Positions 29,100-63,903 of a DNA stretch of 64,000 nt are shown here, in pieces. Numbering within the stretch: the stretch's first letter is position 1; each line of letters begins with the position of its first letter. The notes under the pieces were generated by a model. That model saw only the letters and a list, made by a program, of their open reading frames with translations. It ran no database searches and had not been told where the DNA came from. The translations under genes were made by a program, and so were the position numbers. This DNA is from Alloscardovia macacae (GTDB lineage: Bacteria; Actinomycetota; Actinomycetes; Actinomycetales; Bifidobacteriaceae): positions 124,001-188,000 of the forward strand of contig NZ_MWWT01000001.1 in assembly GCF_002259705.1 (NCBI RefSeq), given 5' to 3'.

Positions 29100-29438
29100 A
29101 TGAAACTCATCACAGCCATACTCCAGCCAGAGACTATGGATGCGGTCATCGAGGCTCTGACCACTCTCGGCATTCATGGGCTGACCATCTCGGAAGCCCA
29201 CGGATATGGACGCCAGCGTGGGCATACGGAAGTGTTTCGTTCAGCTACGTTCACGGTGGATATCCTGCCGAAAGTGCGCTTCGAAGTGGTCTCCGAAGAT
29301 GCGCGTGTGAACGAGGTCGTGGATGCCATCTGTGCGGCTGCATACTCGGGCCAGATAGGGGATGGAAAAGTGTGGGTCACACCCGTGGAGTCCATAACAC
29401 GCGTGCGTACGCGCGAGACGGGAGCAGATGCGCTCTAA
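29100..29438 (+). CDS. glnB: nitrogen regulatory protein PII lacking T-loop tyrosines
   Basis: A 112-residue trimeric signalling protein of standard length, cotranscribed with amtB. The T-loop region GYGRQRGHTEVFRSATFTVD aligns without gaps to E. coli GlnB, but Tyr46 and Tyr51 are both Phe. The nucleotide-binding IGDGKVWV and C-terminal RVRTRE are kept. PII binds ATP/ADP and 2-oxoglutarate and blocks AmtB. Without Tyr51 it cannot be uridylylated or adenylylated there, and no glnD follows. Its stop overlaps the convergent MATE gene by 4 bases. Confidence 0.93.
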   Translation: MKLITAILQPETMDAVIEALTTLGIHGLTISEAHGYGRQRGHTEVFRSATFTVDILPKVRFEVVSEDARVNEVVDAICAAAYSGQIGDGKVWVTPVESITRVRTRETGADAL

Positions 29439-30799
29439 ACCTCTGTGCGTCTCGAGGATGCCAGGGCTGCTGCCATCCACACATCTCCATGCGCACGCAG
29501 GATGTTCCCCATGCCGCGAATGCCCATGAACACGAGGTTAAAGACGAGCCACAGAGTGACCACAGACATGAGAGGTGACGCGCCGGTAGCAGACAGGGTC
29601 CACCACGCGAGCGCGAGTGCCGCCACATGAACGCTTGCGGCCAGCACGCACGCGCGTGCGAGGTAGCTAAAGTCTCCCGCGCCGATGAGCACACCGTCGA
29701 GTGCCCAGAGCCAGCCGTGGTACGGGAAGAAGAGCGCTACGACCACCATGCTCACGGCGATGAGCTGAGCTGTGGCCGCCTGGGTGGTGAACAGTCCTGC
29801 ACCGAACCAGCCGAATGCGGCAAATCCCAGTCCCACATACGCTCCCCAGACGATTCCTGCGCGCTCTATCTCCCGCACGAGCATGCGTGCTCGGTGCATA
29901 TCTCCCGCTCCGAGCGCTACGCCCACGAGTGCCTGTCCTCCTACGCCGATGGCGTCGAGGATGTTTAGCGCGAGGTTCCAGGAAGAATTGACCGCCTGAT
30001 AGCTGGCCAGCACACTCGTGCCGAGCGCGGTAGCAGCCATCACCGTGGCTACCATGCCCACACGCACAGCTGCCGTGCGCACGAAAAGCATGACGCCGTT
30101 TTCTGCGCTCGCCAGCACGCCGTGAAGGTCTGGGCGCACGCTCACGCTGTTTCGGCGCAGCACCGGCCCGAGGTAAGCGAGCAGAATAAAACACATGACC
30201 CACTGGGCGATGGCCGTGGCCACGCCCGAGCCCATCACGCCCCAGCCGAAGCCGAAGATGAACCAGGCGTCGAGTACCACGTTCGTCAGTGCGCTCGCCA
30301 CTGCGGACCACAGCGTAATGCCTGCTTTACCGAGGCCGCGGAACATGCCGTTCGCCGCGTAGGAGATGAGGGTACCCGTAATGCCCAGGCTCGCGGTCTG
30401 CACATAGATGACTGCTGCATCGAGCACCGCACCGCGTGCACCGAGAGCCAGGCTGAGCGGCTGGGCGAGGAGAACTAAGGCTGCCGTGAGCACGATGCCG
30501 ATGATGGCCGCGAGCCACACTCCGGCGACTCCTGCCTTGAGGCCCTCGCGCGTGCGCTTCGCCCCCATGAGCTGCGAGACGCGCGACGTAGTGGAGTAGG
30601 CGAGGAAGAGGCACAGACCCACGCTGGTGAGTACGAGCGTCGAGCCCACGGACAGGCCGGCGAGCGCTATATCCGAGATGCTGCCCACGAAGGCCGTGTC
30701 TGCCATGACGTAGAGCGGCTCGGCGATGAGCTGGCCGAGCGTGGGGATGGCTATGGCCGCGAGCTGGCGGCGGACGGCTTTCGGAGAGGTAGCGGGCAT
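29435..30799 (-). CDS. MATE family multidrug/sodium antiporter
   Basis: A 454-residue protein with about twelve membrane helices. It has the DinF/NorM-like N-terminal IAIPTLGQLIAEPLYVMADT and an internal pseudo-repeat starting near residue 235. MATE proteins expel cationic drugs or metabolites in exchange for Na+ or H+. The ATG at 30799 follows AAAGAAG; the longer reading frame to 30862 lacks a ribosome site. It is monocistronic. Confidence 0.88.
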   Translation of the reverse strand: MPATSPKAVRRQLAAIAIPTLGQLIAEPLYVMADTAFVGSISDIALAGLSVGSTLVLTSVGLCLFLAYSTTSRVSQLMGAKRTREGLKAGVAGVWLAAIIGIVLTAALVLLAQPLSLALGARGAVLDAAVIYVQTASLGITGTLISYAANGMFRGLGKAGITLWSAVASALTNVVLDAWFIFGFGWGVMGSGVATAIAQWVMCFILLAYLGPVLRRNSVSVRPDLHGVLASAENGVMLFVRTAAVRVGMVATVMAATALGTSVLASYQAVNSSWNLALNILDAIGVGGQALVGVALGAGDMHRARMLVREIERAGIVWGAYVGLGFAAFGWFGAGLFTTQAATAQLIAVSMVVVALFFPYHGWLWALDGVLIGAGDFSYLARACVLAASVHVAALALAWWTLSATGASPLMSVVTLWLVFNLVFMGIRGMGNILRAHGDVWMAAALASSRRTEV

Positions 30800-30907: not shown

Positions 30908-31015
30908 TTATCCACGGGTTATCCCCAAGTTATCCACCTATTTATCCCCAAATTGTGGATAAATCTGGCAGTTATACGCAGATTTGAGCGCGACACGCAT
31001 AAAAAATGTGGATAA
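30908..31015. promoter_or_regulatory. cluster of six DnaA-box-like 9-mers upstream of dnaB
   Basis: TTATCCACG (30908), TTATCCCCA (30919), TTATCCACC (30930) and TTATCCCCA (30942) lie on the plus strand, 11-12 bases apart and so on one helical face. Perfect consensus TTATCCACA follows on the minus strand at 30954-30962 and 31007-31015. DnaA binding is likely. The absence of dnaA/dnaN argues against this being the main origin. Confidence 0.7.
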
Positions 31016-31128
31016 CTCTGGTTTTGGGGAGGAGTTTTCCACTCGAACTAGGTATAGTGTGTGGATATTTTTCTGCCACTAGATAGCGGAATGGATGTTC
31101 CCTCCCGCCTCTCGACTAGAATGAGCGT

Positions 31129-63790: not shown

Positions 63791-63903
63791 TGTGGATAAC
63801 CGTGTCATTGTGGATAAGATGAGCACGTATCCACATCTGCTCACAAAGGGCTGATGTGGACGGATGTGCAAGGATGTGAAAAAACGCCGAGGCTCGTGGA
63901 TAA
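63791..63903. promoter_or_regulatory. DnaA-box-like cluster upstream of metG
   Basis: TGTGGATAA (the reverse of consensus TTATCCACA) occurs at 63791-63799 and 63809-63817. Near matches are GTATCCACA at 63827-63835 and CGTGGATAA at 63895-63903. They occupy the gap between the divergent AbiEi-like gene and metG. Confidence 0.6.

Follow-up and report, generated by a model that had tools for sequence, protein, structure and literature searches.

What is a dense, regularly spaced group of DnaA-box-like sites doing directly upstream of dnaB, the gene for the replicative helicase? The group lies in the window, i.e., the whole 64,000-nucleotide stretch that was analysed (G000:C1:124001-188000), which comes from a 1.89-Mb genome in 20 contigs. 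The window's DnaB is 86–91% identical, in the best segment, to the DnaBs of three named Alloscardovia species, which places the host in the Bifidobacteriaceae as an Alloscardovia-like member. The genes around the site run in the order ftsY, an ammonium transporter gene, the P-II gene, a MATE transporter gene on the minus strand, the box array, dnaB, murT, and a glutamine-amidotransferase-like gene. The start codon given for the MATE gene in Table 1 is our choice, and its open frame extends to 30862.

The box array in the window

The first-pass annotation described four phased plus-strand boxes followed by two perfect minus-strand boxes, and all six were found where it had placed them. The steps between the plus boxes are 11, 11, and 12 bp, and the first minus box follows the fourth plus box at a further 12-bp step. 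Each plus box is one base off the consensus, at base 7 or base 9, so that the label DnaA-box-like is a fair one. The array extends from 221 to 114 bp upstream of the dnaB start codon.

Table 1. Box array, nearby elements, and flanking genes in the window. Slots are given relative to the first minus-strand box.
Feature	Position	Strand	Remarks
DnaA box-like TTATCCACG	30908..30916	+	slot -46
DnaA box-like TTATCCCCA	30919..30927	+	slot -35; slot conserved
DnaA box-like TTATCCACC	30930..30938	+	slot -24; slot conserved
DnaA box-like TTATCCCCA	30942..30950	+	slot -12; slot conserved
Perfect DnaA box TTATCCACA	30954..30962	-	slot 0, anchor
Degenerate DnaA box TTATACGCA	30972..30980	+	slot +18, conserved in relatives; absent from the first-pass annotation
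GACACGC element between boxes	30992..30998	+	in relatives, ACACGC occupies the slot held by TTATCC elsewhere
Perfect DnaA box TTATCCACA	31007..31015	-	second of the conserved pair; 53 bp from slot 0 (42-44 bp in relatives)
Weak box TTTTCCACT, two mismatches	31035..31043	+	aligns with a TTATCCACA box in other Alloscardovia
Box ATATCCACA, one mismatch	31060..31068	-	near the dnaB start
dnaB, replicative DNA helicase, 473 aa	31129..32550	+	Pfam DnaB_C, E 1.7e-100; DnaB N-terminal domain, E 1.6e-30
MATE-family transporter gene	29435..30799	-	divergent; flanks the array opposite dnaB; Pfam MatE, E 9.2e-29

The array is real and well beyond chance. Within the 329 bp between the two genes, 7 boxes have at most one mismatch to TTATCCACA; dinucleotide shuffles of this region (n = 2000) held none in 1850 cases, one in 142, and two in 8. 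There are 36 such boxes in the whole window, with a maximum of 6 per 116 bp, as against a mean of 8.0, and never more than 2 per 116 bp, in shuffles of the window (n = 60). Across the genome, TTATNCACA occurs 124 times versus 19 for the reversed motif. Single boxes are thus common genome-wide, and it is their density that is special here. The paired pattern TTATCCNC-NNN-TTATCCNC is found at this locus alone in the genome, as two overlapping matches. The second-densest box group of the window, at 63791-63903, has 4 boxes with at most one mismatch in about 116 bp; the plus-strand gene downstream of it is presumably metG, which it resembles in its first residues.

In the oriC of E. coli, low-affinity DnaA sites are arranged about 11–12 bp apart beside strong boxes. 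The spacing next to strong boxes is similar in the present array, which differs in that it is not at the origin.

Conservation and geometry in the Bifidobacteriaceae

DnaB was found in 146 of the 151 family genomes searched, and 90 dnaB-upstream regions were examined, namely the 30 best-scoring loci and 60 picked to spread over genera (two of the latter, L134 and L137, being shortened by contig ends). These regions represent the family short of its most distant members, genera g3, g4, g8, g9, g12, and g14. Paired minus boxes are present in 67 of the 90. Their spacing is 42 bp, or four helical turns, in 57 regions, 43 bp in 5, and 44 bp in 4; the 53-bp spacing of the window is an outlier to the 66 regions in this 42–44-bp range. 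The other 23 regions have no such pair immediately upstream of dnaB. For five genomes (G018, G030, G042, G024, and G046), neither paired boxes by dnaB nor, in a model search (see below), a strong array elsewhere was found.

In the 57 regions with 42-bp spacing, plus boxes with at most one mismatch occupy distinct slots: -35 (15 regions), -24 (16), -12 (31), +18 (21), +30 (10), and +60/61 (28). When close relatives were compared, the array was present in all four other genomes of the genus; the refuting outcome named in the first-pass annotation, a lack of conserved boxes in close relatives, was not seen. The rigidly conserved slots of the relatives support the earlier proposal that these are phased, and probably DnaA-binding, sites.

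A second element recurs between the minus boxes. The segment before the second minus box has ACACGC in 40 of the 67 arrays, TTATCC in 18, and neither in 9, and ACACGC is found in 0 of 67 upstream control segments. In 36 of the 67 arrays, the start of ACACGC precedes the second minus box by exactly 12 bp; the +30 slot holds a plus box in some genomes and ACACGC in others. By its motif, WhiA is a candidate factor for GACAC. Within 60 bp downstream of the arrays, the reverse complement of ACACGC was counted 25 times over all 67, as against 3 on the other strand.

Arrays away from dnaB and outside the family

The array was sought independently of dnaB with a sequence-only model built from 50 arrays, these 50 also being among the genomes scored. 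The model matches at E ≤ 0.01 in 141 of 151 family genomes, including 130 of 130 genomes of good quality. With the array counted as present if the best match reaches at least 52 bits, 128 of the 151 genomes have it, at scores of 52–97 bits, and 23 are without such a match. The other 13 best matches, none stronger than E 3.5e-8, may represent clusters of the oriC type. In the window's genome the array is the top match, at 67.8 bits, a score below that of most family arrays; the next matches are the clusters near dnaA, at 25.7 and 25.4 bits.

Positions were compared in the 124 genomes where a single contig carries both the array and dnaB; the four genomes in which the two are split between contigs are not counted. 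The array is on the dnaB strand within 1 kb upstream of dnaB in 96 of the 124, on the same strand more than 1 kb upstream (1.1–39.8 kb) in 20, and inverted in 8. Displaced and inverted arrays are still well conserved: mean model scores are 84.4 bits for near, 78.9 for displaced same-strand, and 83.7 for inverted arrays, the displaced same-strand ones thus scoring slightly below the near ones. Among 16 of the 28 displaced or inverted genomes that were examined, none (0/16) has paired boxes in the 1.1 kb upstream of dnaB, the region seen in one of them, G022, being that of the other of its two dnaB copies. In G022, two same-strand DnaB-like matches (C5:59376-60749 and 65947-67320) are separated by about 5 kb, and the array lies 2.5 kb upstream of the second.

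The genes that stand between displaced arrays and dnaB include, by Pfam, LytTR regulators, prolipoprotein diacylglyceryl transferase, and AAA-domain proteins; several have no assigned family. Many of the intervening frames share the direction of dnaB, which leaves room for many displaced arrays to influence dnaB via read-through. Read-through can be excluded in some cases, for example in G007 by distance, as the array is about 40 kb from dnaB, and in G140 by gene orientation, as an AAA-domain gene on the strand opposite to dnaB stands between the two. For five of the eight inverted arrays (G074, G090, G104, G133, and G141), the dnaB-upstream region was seen; in each, the MATE gene lies between and is co-directional with dnaB, so that the array could serve a MATE-dnaB operon. 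In the surroundings of 17 displaced arrays, a MATE gene is present in 11, and a GlnD-type domain gene adjoins the array in 2; in four (L214, L221, L225, and L227), neither of these genes was identified. The distance from array to dnaA is 2.5–16.7% of the chromosome, with a median of 9.0%, in 29 single-contig genomes whose chromosomes are assumed to be circular. Four further single-contig genomes (G083, G099, G105, and G137) and one non-circular distance, 2.17 Mb in a two-contig genome, are outside this figure.

Outside the family, the best model match in an order-level search of 297 genomes is 34 bits, and the rigid array appears to be family-specific at the sensitivity of this model. Looser putative DnaA boxes upstream of dnaB are nonetheless widespread in Actinomycetia. 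The 700 bp upstream of dnaB at 76 of 77 non-family loci (all but L058) contain 125 perfect TT[AG]TCCACA boxes (2.35 per kb), versus 4 for the reversed motif, and 68 of the 76 loci have at least one. The background of perfect boxes at these loci is 0.036 per kb between 1.5 and 5 kb upstream and 0.014 per kb downstream. Another 20 genomes of the class have, in the 800 bp upstream of dnaB, 54 boxes with at most one mismatch, 16 of them perfect (reversed control, 9); 19 of the 20 have a box of this kind. With its boxes upstream of dnaB, the array may belong among the actinobacterial dnaB-upstream DnaA sites.

These sites have a published counterpart. According to one report (PMC7738170), M. tuberculosis DnaA binds upstream of dnaB in vitro, as seen by IDAP-seq, and the homologous region of M. 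smegmatis is bound by DnaA in ChIP-seq. In the same report, a DnaA I282T mutant shows weaker binding upstream of dnaB, with dnaB under-expressed, and the binding is said to agree with that in Caulobacter. The mycobacterial site and, putatively, the present array are both DnaA sites upstream of an actinobacterial dnaB. Unlike for the family array, no rigid multi-box array and no persistence away from dnaB are described in what is available of that report. The B. longum oriC has been described as three box clusters, with TTATCCACA among seven types of box, in an account (PMC2430713) that, as far as seen, makes no mention of dnaB. Among the papers listed in searches of the open-licence literature, we found no report of the rigid family array or of its persistence after displacement.

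Possible functions of the array

The array is probably a genuine control point for DNA replication. We consider it fairly probable, from sequence comparison and from analogy, that it is a cooperative DnaA assembly site that tunes dnaB where it is adjacent and that has, in addition, a role independent of dnaB. DnaA would nucleate on the perfect minus boxes and then spread cooperatively along the weaker plus boxes 11–12 bp apart. An array upstream of dnaB would thereby modulate dnaB transcription, in line with the mycobacterial data; given its distance from the dnaB start codon, the window's array probably does so. The second role could be sequestration of DnaA, or a change of its nucleotide state, near the origin. 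That the array is kept when displaced by up to 40 kb or inverted makes a dnaB-independent role likely. What the comparisons above show directly is the sites, their spacing, conservation, and displacement; from these we infer, as probable, that DnaA binds in this organism, that it does so cooperatively, that dnaB is affected, and that there is a second role.

Known systems offer models for the second role. E. coli datA, DARS1, and DARS2 are groups of DnaA boxes that lie between genes, outside oriC, and keep their spacing (PMC5742627, PMC4585315); the array too is a conserved cluster of boxes at fixed spacing outside oriC. The DARS core has three boxes at fixed spacing; box I is opposite to boxes II and III (PMC5742627). 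Of the E. coli sites, datA and DARS2 carry IHF or Fis sites, and datA and the DARS sites have biochemical activities, stimulating ATP hydrolysis or nucleotide exchange on DnaA (PMC5742627, PMC4585315). Box clusters near oriC in B. subtilis and S. coelicolor, as cited in the same papers (PMC4585315, PMC5742627), are described as repressing untimely initiation, and they resemble the array as DnaA boxes outside oriC in Gram-positive bacteria.

Each half of this combined reading could be proposed to suffice by itself. If dnaB transcription were the sole object, array-bound DnaA would activate or repress dnaB so that helicase supply follows initiation. The boxes upstream of dnaB across Actinomycetia, the mycobacterial mutant in which weaker binding goes with lower dnaB expression (PMC7738170), and the 96 of 124 arrays within 1 kb of dnaB all favor such control, and the coupling to dnaB expression that the first-pass annotation raised is plausible on the first two of these grounds. 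As the whole explanation it is nevertheless rather unlikely: 28 of 124 arrays are displaced or inverted and still well conserved, neither the gap in G007 nor the opposite-strand gene in G140 suits it, and no examined genome with a displaced or inverted array has paired boxes at dnaB in its stead. A simple promoter model is also weakened, since the aligned arrays show no conserved promoter-like element in a view that ends about 60 bp beyond the second minus box, nor did a sigma-70-like promoter turn up in a consensus scan. The converse, that the array is purely a stand-alone regulator of DnaA, acting by titration, datA-like hydrolysis, or DARS-like reactivation, and lies beside dnaB by chance, draws on the persistence after displacement, on the array-dnaA distances, and on the B. 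subtilis and S. coelicolor precedents (PMC4585315, PMC5742627). The single Bac_DnaA-domain match in the window's own genome, which suggests that there is no obvious Hda, points the same way. Titration, likewise raised from the window alone, or another position-independent role gains support from the arrays retained away from dnaB. We regard the stand-alone reading, taken as the complete account, as unlikely, because the boxes accompany dnaB through much of the class and pure titration needs no such link.

Two further readings fare worse. Regulation of the MATE gene would explain why that gene is divergent in all 43 of the 43 array regions where it was found, and why it is in the stretch of 11 of 17 displaced arrays. 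However, 24 of 67 array regions, from six genera, have no MATE gene within 1.1–1.5 kb, and two displaced arrays adjoin the GlnD-type gene instead; MATE regulation is improbable and, on the former count, disfavored as the sole role. An additional or unusual origin, also suggested in the first-pass annotation, is barely credible in spite of the dense boxes and oriC-like spacing. A DnaA domain is encoded at C1:69318-69818, flanked by box clusters at 68589-71377 whose boxes are of the same type as those of the array, and GC skew in 6-kb bins is negative until 72 kb and mostly positive thereafter. Thus, dnaA, the larger clusters (G000:C1:68589-71377), and the sign change stand together, with the array about 85 kb downstream of dnaA. 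The array neither adjoins dnaA nor lies at the skew change, no lasting skew change is seen at it, and it was rejected as an origin.

A broader proposal can be made. Tentatively, and with more doubt than conviction, the array may be a dedicated family DnaA oligomerization locus, built on a 42-bp module and able to leave dnaB, that controls initiation independently of dnaB and, together with a site 3′ of crgA, is part of an actinobacterial DnaA control system that takes over the task of Hda-type control. There is not known to be a settled account of how DnaA is reset in Actinobacteria once replication has begun; a site in harmless bifidobacteria that is conserved, compact, and deletable would open the matter to experiment. 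The array also allows a comparison for two DnaA sites not known to have been described beyond mycobacterial binding maps.

As for the crgA site, CrgA was found in 147 of 148 genomes in a class-wide search. At the 30 best-scoring crgA loci of that search, the 600 bp on the 3′ side contain 84 boxes with at most one mismatch, 38 of them perfect, with at least one box at 29 of the 30; the 5′ side has 1 box and the reversed control 5. This crgA-side site may have a mycobacterial counterpart. Unlike the Bifidobacterium loci, the crgA match of the window's genome (G000:C1:30590-31036) has no cluster of at least three boxes nearby. In three Bifidobacteriaceae genomes, a second DnaA-box array lies beside a rhomboid gene: at L231:2424-2546, where there is no crgA match, and at L229:2307-2409 and L230:2061-2167, where it is on the 3′ side of crgA.
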